From the NCBI RefSeq assembly GCF_028747205.1, contig NZ_CP112880.1:2604001-2668000 (forward strand): DNA of 64,000 bases, written 5' to 3'. A model generated the notes under the pieces. That model did not search any database. It had not been told where the DNA came from and was given only the letters and a program-made list of their open reading frames with translations. The DNA is from Streptomyces sp. CA-278952 (GTDB lineage: Bacteria; Actinomycetota; Actinomycetes; Streptomycetales; Streptomycetaceae). Both the position numbers and the translations under genes were made by a program. Below, piece by piece: positions 59,350-64,000 of the stretch (position 1 is its first letter; each line of letters begins with the position of its first letter).

Positions 59350-59541
59350 ATGCGTCAGCAGAGATACGTACGAGTGGTCAGTGCGGCCCTGGCGGCCGCG
59401 AGCGTGGCCGTGATGAGCGCGCTGCTGGTGGCGGGGGGCGCCACCGGCGGGAGCGAAGCGACGTCGGCCATGTCGGCGCCGGCATCGGTACGGATCAGCA
59501 CCACGCCCGCCGATCACGGCTGGGACACACCGGCTCCGTGA
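59350..59541 (+). CDS. Small secreted peptide, unknown
   Basis: 63 residues: basic MRQQRYVRVVSAALAAASVA, hydrophobic segment to about residue 29 (LLVAGGATGG), then a Ser/Ala-rich part and the end TPADHGWDTPAP. It looks like a Sec signal plus a 30-residue mature peptide. ATG with GGGGGGACC upstream. It lies 74 nt before thyX on the same strand and may be transcribed with it. It has no conserved RiPP leader that I recognise. Confidence 0.6.
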   Translation: MRQQRYVRVVSAALAAASVAVMSALLVAGGATGGSEATSAMSAPASVRISTTPADHGWDTPAP

Positions 59542-59615
59542 CCACCGACGAACTCTGAACGCTCCCGTAGGTGCCGTAGATCGCTTCCGTAGGAATTCCC
59601 AGGAGGAGCATCACC

Positions 59616-60416
59616 ATGACGATCAGTTCACTCACCCCGGCTGAATTCGCCGCTGACCGTGCAATCGGCTCGGAGATCGGTCCGGAGATCGGTCCGGAGA
59701 TCGGTCCGGAGATCGAGCTTCGGAGCAAGATTTCCGTGGAGCTCGTCGATCACACCGCGTCGGACCTCGGCGTGATCCGGGCGGCCCGCGTTTCCACCGC
59801 CGGCGAGGAGGCCCACCGGGAGGAGCGCGGCGACGATTACATGGCCGGGCTCATCCAGTACCTGATGCGCAGCCGGCACGGCAGCCCCTTCGAGCACAAC
59901 TCGATGACGTTCCTGGTGAACGCCCCGATCTTCGTGATCCGGCACATGATGCGTCACCGTATGTGGTCGTTCAACGAGGAGAGCGCGCGCTACAAGAATC
60001 TGGAATCCGTCTTCTACGTTCCGGACAGCGACCGGCTTCTCAAGCAGGAGGGAAAGCCGGGGCACTACAAGTACGTGCCCGGCAGCGAGGAGGACTACGA
60101 GCTGCTGTCGCTGTCGGCGAGCACCGCCTATCGGGCCGCGTTCCGCGAGTACCAGCAGATGCTCGATGCCGGTATCGCCCGTGAACTGGCCCGCATGGTT
60201 CTTCCGGTGGCCACGTTCTCGACGGTATACGCGACCTGCAACGCGCGGTCGTTGATGCACTTCCTCGGCCTCCGCACCAACCGCGCGGACGCCACGTACG
60301 TATCCCATCCTCAGCGCGAGATCGAGATCGTGGCGGAGCAGATGGAGGCCGAGTTCGCGCGGCTCATGCCGTTGACACACGCGTCCTACGAGCGCTGCGG
60401 ACGCGTCAGCCCCTGA
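59616..60416 (+). CDS. thyX: ThyX-type flavin-dependent thymidylate synthase
   Basis: 266 residues. The ThyX motif is RHRMWSFNEESARY (RHRX7S form). FEHNSMTFLVNAPIFVIRH and YATCNARSLMHFLGLRT are other conserved parts. The enzyme methylates dUMP at C5 with FAD, NADPH and methylene-tetrahydrofolate. A 12-bp repeat near the start encodes EIGP three times (about residues 19-31), not a family feature. ATG with AGGAGG. Followed 36 nt later by a LOG gene. In this setting it may act on a pathway intermediate rather than on dUMP for DNA. Confidence 0.93.
   Translation: MTISSLTPAEFAADRAIGSEIGPEIGPEIGPEIELRSKISVELVDHTASDLGVIRAARVSTAGEEAHREERGDDYMAGLIQYLMRSRHGSPFEHNSMTFLVNAPIFVIRHMMRHRMWSFNEESARYKNLESVFYVPDSDRLLKQEGKPGHYKYVPGSEEDYELLSLSASTAYRAAFREYQQMLDAGIARELARMVLPVATFSTVYATCNARSLMHFLGLRTNRADATYVSHPQREIEIVAEQMEAEFARLMPLTHASYERCGRVSP
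59672..59715 (+). repeat. 12-bp in-frame repeat in thyX
   Basis: GGAGATCGGTCC three times plus 8 nt; codes for the EIGP repeats at the ThyX N terminus. Confidence 0.9.
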
Positions 60417-60451
60417 CGCTGCCGGCCCCTGACAGACGGAGGAATGGTCGT

Positions 60452-61012
60452 ATGCGCATCACTGTGTACGCGGGATCGGCGCTGGGCAACCGCACCGTCT
60501 ACCGCGAAGCCGCGGAACGGTTCGCCCGGGATCTGGCGACTGCCGGGCACGAGATCGTCTACGGCGGCGGGGCCGTCGGCCTGATGGGCGTGGTGGCCGA
60601 CGCCGCCCTGGCCGCGGGCGGACGGGTGACCGGCGTCATTCCCCAGTCCCTCGTGGACGCGGAGGTCGCCCATCTCGGACTGACCGACCTGCGTGTCGTC
60701 GACAGCATGCATGAACGCAAACAGCTCATGGCCGACCTGGGCGACTGCTTCGTGGCGTTGCCGGGCGGCGTGGGGACGATCGAGGAAATCCTCGAGGTAT
60801 GGGCCTGGCTGGTCCTCGGTCACCATGACAAACCCGTCGTGCTGTTGAACACCGACGGCTATTGGGACCGCCTGGTGCGGATGACGAACCGCATGTCGGT
60901 CAGCGGATTCCTCCGCCCCGAGGAAGCCGGGACGCTCGCTTCCGTCGCCGATTCCGCGGAATTGTTCGAAGTGATCCAGCAGTGGAAAGCCCCGCCGCCC
61001 CGGTGGGGATGA
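60452..61012 (+). CDS. LOG-family nucleotide 5'-monophosphate phosphoribohydrolase
   Basis: 186 residues, Rossmann-type. LOG motifs: ERKQLM-type segment (MHERKQLMADLGDCFVALPG) and PGGVGTIEE. LOG enzymes cut the N-glycosidic bond of nucleoside 5'-monophosphates and release the base; cytokinin nucleotides are the best-known substrates, but related bacterial enzymes take AMP or pyrimidine nucleotides. ATG at 60452 after GGAGG. It lies between thyX and an oxygenase in the same direction, so the base made by ThyX could be its substrate. Confidence 0.9.
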   Translation: MRITVYAGSALGNRTVYREAAERFARDLATAGHEIVYGGGAVGLMGVVADAALAAGGRVTGVIPQSLVDAEVAHLGLTDLRVVDSMHERKQLMADLGDCFVALPGGVGTIEEILEVWAWLVLGHHDKPVVLLNTDGYWDRLVRMTNRMSVSGFLRPEEAGTLASVADSAELFEVIQQWKAPPPRWG

Positions 61013-61029
61013 TCTGAGAGGTGGCAGCG

Positions 61030-62082
61030 ATGTCCGTCATGGAAGAAGAGATACGCGATACAGCAGCGCTCATCACCGTCGTGGACGGGTACGTTCCGGT
61101 CCTCGACCTGAGCGGATCCCGTTCGGGATCCGCCGGCTCCCGGGAACAACTGGCCGCGACCATCGACAAGGTGTGCCGCACCAGCGGATTCCTGGTCATC
61201 GTCGGGCACGGAGTTCCTGGGACGACCATCTCCGACATGTACCGGGCCACGCGGGAGTTCTTCTCGCTGCCGGCCCACGAGAAGGCGGAATTGCTGGCGG
61301 ATCCCGGGGATCCGCTGATGCGGGGCTTCGGCCGGAAGGGCAGCCTCGCCGCTTCGAACGAGGACGCGGCGGTCGAGCGGGAGCGGGCCCTGCCGGACAT
61401 CTCCGAGACGTACACGGTCAATCGTCTCGGCGAGAGCCACGGGGCGCGGTCCCTGCCCGCGCACGCCGACCCCGCGCTGCGGTCCCCGAACCGCTGGCCG
61501 GCGCTGCCCGGCTTCTCCGATGCCTATCTGGCCTATTACGCGGCGATGGAGGACCTCGCCGGGCACATCATGCGGCTCTTCGCCCTGGGCCTCGGCCTTC
61601 CGGAGGACTGGTTCGACGACAAGATCGACCAGCACATGACCAATATGACGGCGAACTACTACCCGGCGCAGGAGACGCCGCCCGAGCCGGGGCAGTTGCG
61701 CAAGGGCGTCCACAGCGACTGGGGCAGCCTCACCATCCTGTACCAGGACAACGGCACCGGAGGGCTACAGGTCCAGTCGAAGACCGGGGACTGGCTCGAC
61801 GTCCCCGTCATCGACGGTTCGTTCGTGGTGAACATCGGCGACCTGATGGCCAACTGGACCAACAACCAGTGGGTGAGCACGGTGCATCGGGTCGTCAACC
61901 CGCCCGCGGAGCTCGCCGGGACCGAACGGTACTCGATCCCGTTCTTCCACCAGCCCAACTTCGACGCGGTCATCGAATGCATTCCGACGTGCACCGGACC
62001 GGAGAACCCGCCGAGGCACCTGCCGGTGCGCTCGGGCGCGTACATCACCGGGAAGTTCCGCAAGGCCTACGGGGCCCCGTAG
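61030..62082 (+). CDS. 2-oxoglutarate/Fe(II)-dependent oxygenase (isopenicillin N synthase-like)
   Basis: 350 residues. DIOX_N domain (VVDGYVPVLDLS, SGFLVIVGHGVPG), then the double-stranded beta-helix with the iron ligands in HSDWG (His-X-Asp) and VHRVVNPP (distal His), and Arg of RYSIPF for 2-oxoglutarate. NYYPAQETPPEPGQL is the usual N-Y-Y-P. ATG at 61030 has AGAGGTGG upstream; a GTG at 61021 is in frame. The next 47 codons after its TAG stay open into the MFS gene. The substrate is unknown; a free pyrimidine base or amino acid is possible. Confidence 0.92.
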   Translation: MSVMEEEIRDTAALITVVDGYVPVLDLSGSRSGSAGSREQLAATIDKVCRTSGFLVIVGHGVPGTTISDMYRATREFFSLPAHEKAELLADPGDPLMRGFGRKGSLAASNEDAAVERERALPDISETYTVNRLGESHGARSLPAHADPALRSPNRWPALPGFSDAYLAYYAAMEDLAGHIMRLFALGLGLPEDWFDDKIDQHMTNMTANYYPAQETPPEPGQLRKGVHSDWGSLTILYQDNGTGGLQVQSKTGDWLDVPVIDGSFVVNIGDLMANWTNNQWVSTVHRVVNPPAELAGTERYSIPFFHQPNFDAVIECIPTCTGPENPPRHLPVRSGAYITGKFRKAYGAP

Positions 62083-62154
62083 CTCCCGCATCCGCTCCCG
62101 TATCCGTCTCCGCATCCGCTTCCGCTTCCGCTCCCGTATCCGTCTCCGTATCCG
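62083..62154 (+). repeat. Twelve hexamer repeats coding for X-Pro
   Basis: Twelve 6-nt units of CTCCCG, NATCCG, CTTCCG or TCTCCG, in phase with the oxygenase and MFS frames, so the frame reads (X-Pro)12. The block CTCCCGTATCCGTCTCCG occurs at 62095-62112 and 62131-62148. Between the oxygenase TAG and MFS ATG. Confidence 0.9.
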
Positions 62155-62223
62155 CCGGGAACGGCGGCGGCCACGCCGTGCCAGGCCCGGCCCATCCCTC
62201 CTGTCACCAGAAAGGCCTTCGCC

Positions 62224-63525
62224 ATGCCCTCGGCCGCCGCCGCCCCGCCCGCTGCGAGCAGACTGTCCCGGTTCGGGTTCCCCGAGATCCGCGGTTCCGG
62301 AAACTTCCTGTTGGCGAGCCTGATCCAGGGAACCGGGAACGGCCTGCTGCTCGCCTTCCAACTGGTCTACTTCACCGCCACCACCGCCATGTCCGCGGTG
62401 GCGGTCGGTACCGCGCTCACCCTCTCCCGACTGCTCACGCTCCCCGCACCGGCTGTGGTGGGGCCCCTGATGGACCGGTACGGGGCACGACGCGTCGTCA
62501 TCGTCGGCAACGCCCTGTGCGCCGTGGCCTTCTTCTCCTTCCTCTTCGTGGAGAACTCCTGGCAGGTGGTCGCGACCGGGGTCGCGGTGCAGTTCGGCAC
62601 CGCGATGTTCTGGACCGCCAACAGCGCCCTGGTCTCCCTGGCCGCTCACCAGGGGGACCGCACCCGGTGGTTCGGCCTGATCCGGGTCATCCGGAACGTC
62701 GGGCTGGGCGTGGGCGGTGCGGTGGCGGCGCTGGCCACCAGCACCTCGGGGACCGCGGGCCTGCGCGTCCTGGTGATCGGCTGCGCACTGTCCTACGCCG
62801 TGGCCGGCGTTCTCATCGCCACCTGGCATCCGCGGGAGAAGGGGCAGGGCGTGGCGGGCGCGCACGGCGCGGAGCAGACGCCGAAGGCGAGCTACCGCCT
62901 GGTCCTGCGGGACCATGTCTATCTGCGCCTGGTCGCGGTGAACGTGGTCTTCGTCCTGGCCGCGATGGTGCTCAGTTTCCTGCTGGCCATCTACGTCGTG
63001 GACGCGCTCTCCGCCCCCACCTGGCTCGTCGGCGTCCTGCTCATCGTCAACAGCGCGCTGGTGATCGGCGGGCAGTCGGTGGCCACCCGGCTGATCGAAC
63101 GCCACCCGCTGACGAAGGTGATCGCTGTCGCGTCCGCACTGGACGCGCTGGCCTTTGGTATCTACGCCCTGCTCGACGGTATGCCGCAAGGGGCCGTCAT
63201 CGCGGGCCTGTTCCTGGGGATGATCATCTTCACGGCCGGAGAGATCCTGGCCTCGCCCGGCCTGGGAGAGCTCAGCGTCGCGCTGGCTCCGCCCCACGCA
63301 CTCGGGCGCTATCTGGCGGTGTTTCAGCTCTCCTGGACGCTCGGCATGGCACTGGCCCCGTGGCTGTTCACCACGCTGCTGAGCGCGGGGCCGAGGACGC
63401 CCTGGCTGGTGCTCTGCGCGCTCAGCGTGATCGCGATCCCGGCCGTCCGGGGCCTGCCGCGGCAACTCGCCCCGCAGGGGGAGCCCGCCGGACAGGACGC
63501 CGTTCCGTCCGGCGCGGCCGGCTAG
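62224..63525 (+). CDS. MFS transporter
   Basis: 433 residues with about 12 membrane helices. The loop 2-3 motif is GPLMDRYGARRVVI (DRYGAR type), as in drug exporters of the major facilitator family. The N-terminal RFGFPEIRGSGNFLLASLI and the C-terminal basic tail are cytosolic. ATG with a weak AAAGG. Probably exports the product of the cluster, or confers self-resistance. Confidence 0.9.
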   Translation: MPSAAAAPPAASRLSRFGFPEIRGSGNFLLASLIQGTGNGLLLAFQLVYFTATTAMSAVAVGTALTLSRLLTLPAPAVVGPLMDRYGARRVVIVGNALCAVAFFSFLFVENSWQVVATGVAVQFGTAMFWTANSALVSLAAHQGDRTRWFGLIRVIRNVGLGVGGAVAALATSTSGTAGLRVLVIGCALSYAVAGVLIATWHPREKGQGVAGAHGAEQTPKASYRLVLRDHVYLRLVAVNVVFVLAAMVLSFLLAIYVVDALSAPTWLVGVLLIVNSALVIGGQSVATRLIERHPLTKVIAVASALDALAFGIYALLDGMPQGAVIAGLFLGMIIFTAGEILASPGLGELSVALAPPHALGRYLAVFQLSWTLGMALAPWLFTTLLSAGPRTPWLVLCALSVIAIPAVRGLPRQLAPQGEPAGQDAVPSGAAG

Positions 63526-63612
63526 CGCGACAGCACCGGACGGCCCGCACATCCATCCACCCGGACCCGTCCGTAATCCATCCAACCGATCCCGGAACTG
63601 GGGTAACCCATC

Positions 63613-64000
63613 GTGACCAGAGGTGTCCTGCTCTTCGGAGCGGAGAGCAGTGCGGCGGAAGACGTCGTCGACGCTGCCCGTGACCTGGGGGTGTCCGTCC
63701 ACCTGGCCACCCACTCGGAGGTGTACGACCGCTACTCCGACGGCCTGAGGAAGAAGTTCACCGGCACCGTCTTCACCGACTTCCGCTCCCCGCAGACAGC
63801 ACTGGAGGAGCTGGAGCTCTACTGCACCACCCAGGGCATCTCCGGGGTGCTCGTCGGCTGGGAGTTCCTCTCTCCGCTGGCCACGCGACTGGCCGCACGG
63901 CTGGGGCTGCCCGGTCACGATGTGGATCGTGCCGACGCGGTACGCAACAAAGGCAGCATGGCGGAGCTGTTCGGCAAGTACGCCGTACCCAGCCCGCTCT
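63613..64000 (+). CDS. ATP-grasp ligase, N-terminal part (cut by window end)
   Basis: 129 residues visible. A GTG at 63613 begins MTRGVLLFGAESSAAEDVVD. A pre-ATP-grasp alpha/beta domain follows, then GLPGHDVDRADAVRNKGSMA, which is the usual entry to the ATP-grasp domain (Lys of NKG as nucleotide ligand), and GKYAVPSPL. These enzymes join a carboxylate to an amine or thiol with ATP. It is the last gene seen of the right-edge cluster; the C terminus is outside. Confidence 0.85.
   Translation, partial: MTRGVLLFGAESSAAEDVVDAARDLGVSVHLATHSEVYDRYSDGLRKKFTGTVFTDFRSPQTALEELELYCTTQGISGVLVGWEFLSPLATRLAARLGLPGHDVDRADAVRNKGSMAELFGKYAVPSPL

Follow-up and report, generated by a model that had tools for sequence, protein, structure and literature searches.

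Why does the genome of the soil bacterium Streptomyces sp. CA-278952, which holds a gene for the thymidylate synthase ThyX elsewhere, carry an extra thyX in a compact run of genes for a LOG-family phosphoribohydrolase, a 2-oxoglutarate- and Fe(II)-dependent (2OG) oxygenase, a major facilitator superfamily (MFS) transporter and ATP-grasp ligases? The run begins in the last 4.65 kb of the window, the 64,000-nucleotide stretch analysed here (positions 2604001-2668000 of the single contig that makes up the 8.21 Mb genome). An earlier note, made from the letters of the window alone, had described six + strand genes with short gaps, named the families and proposed that the set builds an oxidised, ligated pyrimidine product for export. 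The six open reading frames (ORFs) are indeed all on the + strand, 17-141 bases apart, and the families of the five enzymes and transporters in the window are borne out by Pfam, with ThyX and LOG also above their NCBIfam cut-offs. To the right of position 64000, the set continues with two more ligases, a uracil permease and a LuxR-like regulator. There is very little doubt that these genes are a genuine biosynthetic cluster, which is conserved and has a dedicated methylase for uridine 5'-monophosphate (UMP). It is likely that the triad of thyX, LOG and 2OG genes yields oxidised free thymine, and we lean towards a full scheme that would end in an amide or peptide of 5-carboxyuracil.

An extra thyX within a conserved gene set

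Evidence that the genes belong together came from their recurrence in other genomes. The second ligase gene, AG2, used as query at E 1e-60 in 392 Streptomyces genomes, found a relative in 26, and the stretches around the other 25 were examined. The triad lies beside ligases in 5 of the 26 genomes (this one included); in the stretches seen for the remaining 21, four of them shortened by contig ends, it was not found. A profile built from five oxygenases led to 34 named loci. All 19 loci with an oxygenase at least 63% identical also have thyX and LOG. Together with this genome and G259 they make 21 distinct loci in 20 genomes, Streptomyces sp. Ru73 having two, and they span the genera Streptomyces, Kitasatospora, Actinokineospora and Saccharothrix (L032 and L033, which are the loci L060 and L063, were dropped from these counts). 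The remaining 15 of the 34 loci, with an oxygenase at 43-49%, have no thyX, LOG, AG1, AG2 or permease in the stretch at hand, which in four cases is just 3.6-17 kb long. Because the set is conserved in 21 loci and absent around these 15 control loci, its conservation goes beyond chance.

Three further samples bear on the same question. An even draw of 392 Streptomyces genomes gave seven loci (in six genomes) with an oxygenase of 63% identity or more, and each of these has thyX within 1.5 kb, complete or truncated where the stretch ends; five loci with an oxygenase at 47-51% have none. LOG was seen in five of these seven short stretches; the other two, where thyX is cut by the stretch end, show LOG in L071 and L073, the longer loci that cover the same places. 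From 394 genomes drawn across the class, only this genome and two oxygenase relatives at 49-53% emerged. Of the 120 best rows of a protein search, 60 (P0001-P0060) reached 61% identity or more to the oxygenase, and contexts were examined for part of them. Across the 21 loci the triad is found in 21, AG1 and AG2 in 19 each, the LuxR-like gene in 15, the uracil permease in 14, an alpha/beta hydrolase gene in seven and the third ligase gene, AG3, in three; an MFS gene is present in 19, in 13 of the type found here and in six of another type. Some of these gene calls are fragments, such as AG1 of L088.

The second ThyX of this genome lies in a region that we take to read dapA-thyX-dapB. Among 16 genomes searched for ThyX, the 13 that bear the cluster all have two or three such genes, whereas each of the three where the triad was not observed has just one; in two Actinokineospora genomes and the Saccharothrix genome the other ThyX is a distant copy, 28-30% identical to PolB, the ThyX-family enzyme of polyoxin biosynthesis. 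Two implications of the earlier note thus hold: the gene set is kept together elsewhere, and this thyX is not the sole thymidylate synthase gene of its genome.

PolB is also the best guide to the extra ThyX, which is 68% identical to it over 226 aligned residues. PolB (4p5a) methylates both UMP and deoxyuridine monophosphate (dUMP); its Tyr126, in Loop 1, is Phe in Streptomyces ThyX, and Y126F costs more than 60% of the UMP activity (PMC5003785). The extra ThyX has Tyr126, His83, Ala97, Tyr99 and Tyr124 as in PolB. Tyr126, His83 and Ala97 occur in all 23 cluster rows of the alignment (21 distinct loci), whereas these positions hold Phe, Glu and Gly in 12 of 12 housekeeping copies that align well; the UMP-methylase trait, Tyr126 with Tyr99 and Tyr124, is likewise present in 23 of 23 (L105 and L116 gave no row, and the match G263:C6 had no locus). 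A tree that leaves out three poorly aligning distant copies (L090-L092) sets PolB and 21 cluster copies apart from 12 housekeeping copies with support 0.887; the position of PolB inside or outside the cluster copies is weakly resolved (0.528).

The closest experimental evidence concerns SVIThyX2 of S. viridochromogenes DSM 40736, which is 71% identical to PolB and methylated UMP and dUMP in vitro (PMC5003785). In this strain, the ThyX of the cluster (L058) shares 70% identity with PolB over 237 residues; a search of the genome turned up just one other ThyX, which has Phe126 and is of the housekeeping type. SVIThyX2 is therefore almost certainly the L058 cluster enzyme, as judged by identity figures rather than accession numbers. 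The extra ThyX studied here is likewise predicted to be a UMP methylase that, like PolB, acts on UMP as well as dUMP, and the first step of the route would be methylation of UMP at C5 to give 5-methyl-UMP. Of all the steps proposed, this is the one that has direct support, which comes from the orthologue SVIThyX2. Near the 5' end of this thyX, a 12-base tandem repeat (59664-59715, 3.8 perfect copies) encodes repeated EIGP units in an extra N-terminal stretch.

Proposed release and oxidation of the base

The LOG protein scores 173 bits against TIGR00730 (cut-off 96), whereas its 131 bits against NF058542, the equivalog of cytokinin-activating LOG, fall below the cut-off of 300. It contains PGGVGTIEE, which fits the LOG motif PGGxGTxxE; a relative in L065 has PGSVGT. 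The genome has two LOG paralogues, the closer one 41% identical. The cluster enzyme is predicted to hydrolyse the N-glycosidic bond of 5-methyl-UMP and so to release free thymine as the second step.

By both profile and fold, the nearest solved structure to the oxygenase is the fungal thymine-7-hydroxylase (T7H) NcT7H (5c3p-5c3s), at about 34% identity. The fold comparison used an AlphaFold model from 33 sequences with a mean predicted local distance difference test (pLDDT) score of 86.7; a first model from five sequences (mean pLDDT 34) was discarded. The functional residues of T7H are defined in PMC4787775, and many have counterparts here: in T7H numbering, the iron triad His214/Asp216/His271, the 2OG ligands Tyr194/Arg286/Ser288, the stacking Phe292 and an aromatic residue at 217 (Tyr in T7H, Trp here) are kept in all 23 cluster rows. 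In the third step, the oxygenase would oxidise the methyl group of thymine, most likely through 5-hydroxymethyluracil (5hmU) and 5-formyluracil (5fU) to 5-carboxyuracil, the level of oxidation being uncertain.

Several observations weigh against this reading. In all 23 cluster rows, Thr, Met, Thr and Gln stand in place of Arg190, Asn87, Glu122 and Asn294 of T7H, for which reason the enzyme is called T7H-like and not T7H. In T7H, Arg190 is vital, and losing Asn87 or Glu122 mainly hurts the later oxidations, of 5hmU and 5fU (PMC4787775), which means that the enzyme of the cluster may act on a nucleotide or halt at an early oxidation. The margin of the T7H profile match over the next protein is modest (176 versus 161 bits). 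The oxygenase of L074 (Streptomyces pathocidini), near which thyX, LOG and ligases were not found, has the same residue pattern as the cluster enzymes. Further along the route, AG1 and AG2 are missing from two of the 21 loci and AG3 is present in only three.

The strongest alternative, which we consider unlikely, is that the order of steps is swapped or the oxidation less complete. The oxygenase would then act on 5-methyl-UMP or 5-methyluridine, or stop at 5hmU; LOG would free the base later, and a ligase might esterify the hydroxymethyl group or join another acid. D-Ala-D-lactate ligases, which share the ATP-grasp fold, do make esters. A swapped order would fit the fact that Asn87, Glu122 and Arg190, which in T7H grip the free base near N1 and O2, are replaced throughout the cluster rows, and oxidation in the polyoxin pathway has been proposed at the UMP level (PMC5003785). 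However, the oxygenase is nearest in fold and sequence to a free-base enzyme, its aromatic clamp is kept, and the gene order in most loci is thyX-LOG-2OG. A lower oxidation level would fit what follows from losing Asn87 or Glu122 in T7H, but the loci described below that pair the triad with a KAS III homologue or AMP-forming ligase fit an acid.

Proposed ligation and export, and other explanations

Oxidation of free thymine to 5-carboxyuracil would leave an acid for the ligases. The best PDB matches of AG1 are 3vot, an L-amino acid ligase, and BacD; AG2 is a more distant ATP-grasp enzyme, and AG3 resembles AG1. Against the NCBIfam equivalogs DdaF and BacD, AG1 scores 73 bits (cut-off 840) and 57 bits (cut-off 850), far below both. 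In midpoint-rooted trees with relatives from clusters lacking thyX, the triad-associated AG1 proteins are separate from all others, L060 branching at the root, and the triad-associated AG2 proteins form one group, though L035 is placed inside it. Relatives of AG1, AG2 and the MFS transporter also occur in a second type of cluster, in which the triad was not seen (L036-L038, L040-L052 and L054, all from Streptomyces genomes); as scanned in L044 and L037, it has a HemN-like radical S-adenosylmethionine (SAM) protein, a FemAB-like transferase and a DUF1152 protein, a family unmentioned in the open-access literature searched.

In the fourth step, the ligases would activate the pyrimidine acid and amino acids as acyl phosphates and join them into a small amide or peptide. 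Accompanying genes differ between loci: an Asp/Arg hydroxylase in L059 and, by similar start, in L064, L066 and L072; a carbamoyltransferase and a TauD-type oxygenase in L058; a 2OG-Fe_Oxy_2 protein in L034. No such amino-acid tailoring gene was recognised in L003, the stretch that extends rightward past position 64000 of the window, so common amino acids may be used in this strain. Finally, the MFS transporter would export the product, the uracil permease would probably handle the pyrimidine base and the LuxR-like protein would regulate the cluster.

Divergence within the cluster is consistent with this division of labour. Median pairwise identities are 71% for ThyX, 65% for LOG, 72% for the oxygenase and 71% for the permease, versus 48% for AG1, 51% for AG2 and 50% for the MFS transporter (L071 and L073 left out; LOG from 18 sequences, one having been missed by the gene caller). 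Head genes at 65-72% and ligases at 48-51% show the pattern that a single head group with differing tails should give, and it appears that the pyrimidine head and base permease are constant, with tail building and export varying. KAS III homologues are present in both loci without AG1 and AG2, L071 and L073; in L071 they are accompanied by an AMP-forming ligase, a short-chain dehydrogenase/reductase, an enoyl-CoA hydratase and a YdcZ-type exporter. This hints that the triad serves as a carboxylic-acid module. A more tentative generalisation, which we hold a little less readily than the scheme itself, is that thyX-LOG-2OG is a portable supply of free 5-carboxyuracil, delivered mostly to ATP-grasp ligases and in a few loci to an AMP-ligase or KAS III, giving a new class of nucleobase-capped peptides and ketides. 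The interpretation put forward in the earlier note is supported, and the roles are sharpened to a PolB-like ThyX, a T7H-like oxygenase, three ligases and a permease; the product itself, its oxidation level and its amino acids are what we infer.

Three other explanations rank below this scheme. In one, the extra ThyX is a self-resistance gene, replacing a housekeeping thymidylate synthase inhibited by the product, and LOG and the oxygenase are unrelated. A second ThyX is indeed kept elsewhere in the genome, and PolB can stand in for ThyX in growth (PMC5003785). However, thyX is tied to LOG and 2OG genes in 21 of 21 loci and has the residues of a UMP methylase, not those of the housekeeping enzyme, which makes self-resistance very unlikely. 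Slightly less credible still is salvage or catabolism, in which the genes would recycle thymine to uracil as in fungi, where T7H belongs to such a pathway (PMC4787775). Against it, there would be no point in making 5-methyl-UMP just to break it down, 19 of 21 loci pair the triad with ligases, and no isoorotate decarboxylase was recognised among the 20 called L003 genes scanned, the enzyme not having been sought genome-wide.

The small ORF upstream of thyX encodes 63 amino acids, with a hydrophobic N-terminal stretch and a C-terminal end ...DHGWDTPAP. Of the 15 distinct loci that carry the LuxR-like gene, 13 have an ORF of this kind, ending in D-H/P/S-G-W-D/G, upstream of the cluster; in the six that lack the gene none was found (Fisher p 0.0005, with no correction for relatedness and with a motif drawn from the same data). 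Besides this genome, such ORFs are found in L034, L056-L058, L060-L063, L065, L067, L068 and L088; those of L063 and L067, two of the 13, have no obvious signal sequence. Two further motif matches, in L070 (other strand, far from thyX) and L076, were taken as chance. For the regulator of L003, Pfam and NCBIfam gave no match and the search for a solved relative nothing convincing; it is called LuxR-like because its L064 relative (37% identical) matches GerE. Near four LuxR-like paralogues in this genome no comparable peptide ORF was found. The small ORF is possibly an exported signal peptide for this regulator, probably regulatory and not part of the product. That the ligases instead join the pyrimidine acid to a peptide cut from this ORF, much as the pheganomycin ligase uses a ribosomal peptide, is the least probable explanation of all, since its conserved D-x-G-W-D-like end and its place next to thyX are offset by its presence in only 13 of 21 loci, where it tracks the LuxR-like gene, and by loci such as L066, L069, L070 and L072, where AG1 and AG2 are kept but the ORF was not found.

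Gene layout and known systems

Features of the cluster, in window positions unless marked L003 (window position = L003 position + 57000)
Feature	Position	Strand	Basis or remark
Small ORF, 63 amino acids	59350-59541	+	No NCBIfam match
Extra ThyX, PolB type, predicted UMP C5-methylase	59616-60416	+	Pfam Thy1 170 bits; TIGR02170 188 bits; best PDB relative 4p5a (PolB), 357 bits
LOG-family phosphoribohydrolase, predicted thymine release from 5-methyl-UMP	60452-61012	+	Pfam Lysine_decarbox; TIGR00730; best PDB 5its
2OG-Fe(II) oxygenase, thymine-7-hydroxylase-like	61030-62082	+	Pfam DIOX_N and 2OG-FeII_Oxy; ATG start, ORF opens with GTG at 61021
MFS transporter, probable product exporter	62224-63525	+	Pfam MFS_1 124 bits
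AG1, ATP-grasp ligase, L-amino-acid-ligase type	63613-64000 within the window, gene end at 64848	+	Pfam ATP-grasp_4 and LAL_C2; best PDB 3vot
AG2, ATP-grasp	L003 7852-9138	+	3 bases after AG1
AG3, ATP-grasp	L003 9189-10412	+	50 bases after AG2
Uracil permease, NCS2-type	L003 10409-11896	+	4-base overlap with AG3 gene
LuxR-like regulator	L003 11931-12947	-	
Alpha/beta hydrolase	L003 13253-14035		
ParE/RelE-type toxin-like gene	L003 14090-14440		Just outside the cluster

The gaps between the six ORFs of the window are 74, 35, 17, 141 and 87 bases, and a 12/36-base tandem repeat (62082-62155) lies between the 2OG and MFS genes. The flanks look ordinary, with a family-65 glycoside hydrolase, SPFH and NfeD proteins on the left and ParE/RelE-like, YchF, ROK and LytB proteins on the right. 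An Rfam scan of the window gave nothing above gathering scores. Neither sigma-70 promoters nor intrinsic terminators were found in L003 2000-13300 by simple consensus scans, a method that suits Streptomyces poorly. At the edges of other clusters, a small TIGR03618 F420-dependent PPOX protein recurs (L066, L069, L071, L072, L073 and L088; the L072 copy was scanned and the rest are alike by start). Near the end of three clusters (L032/L060, L059 and L064) stands U448, a protein of 448-463 amino acids with no Pfam match (L032 copy) and no NCBIfam or convincing PDB match (L059 copy).

The earlier note knew of no described cluster with this exact set, and no description of the cluster or its product was found in the open-access literature searched, where most subscription journals are missing. 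If the scheme is right, the cluster would make a new family of natural products, of a nucleobase-peptide kind not seen before, by a route testable step by step. It would also give a biosynthetic setting to the UMP methylase SVIThyX2, whose cluster goes undescribed in the parts of PMC5003785 consulted. With a constant head and varied ligases, the clusters, at least 21 in number, could be mined for antimetabolites and new ATP-grasp ligases.

Parallels with known systems are partial. The cluster ligases belong to the same ATP-grasp superfamily as BL00235, BacD (bacilysin) and DdaF (dapdiamide), with LAL_C2 in AG1, but in contrast to those systems three ligases stand in a row beside a pyrimidine module. 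NcT7H and the cluster oxygenase are alike in their Fe ligands, most 2OG ligands and the aromatic clamp; the former serves a salvage pathway, whereas the latter sits in a biosynthetic cluster. Pathways of the MilA/MilB type (mildiomycin, bacimethrin) also combine C5 modification with N-glycosidic cleavage of a pyrimidine nucleotide, by other thymidylate-synthase and hydrolase families. In polyoxin-type peptidyl nucleoside clusters, radical SAM and enolpyruvyl-transferase genes serve to build the nucleoside skeleton. Pfam showed neither domain among the 20 called genes of L003, the rest of the genome not being excluded. The polyoxin parallel drawn by the earlier note stands for ThyX, in its family and the five residues shared with PolB, and does not extend beyond it. 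In polyoxins A and F the 5-methyl group is oxidised later (PMC5003785). Polyoxin keeps its nucleoside, whereas the cluster described here has a LOG that should remove the sugar phosphate. For that step there is precedent in the same family, used or proposed for base release from a 5'-monophosphate: AgmA frees adenine from AMP in angustmycin biosynthesis (PMC8599513), and 8-AzgD has been proposed for the last step to 8-azaguanine, the reported assay having detected no product (PMC7674941). The known or presumed substrates of AgmA and 8-AzgD are purine nucleotides, whereas the cluster LOG is expected to act on a C5-methylated pyrimidine nucleotide.

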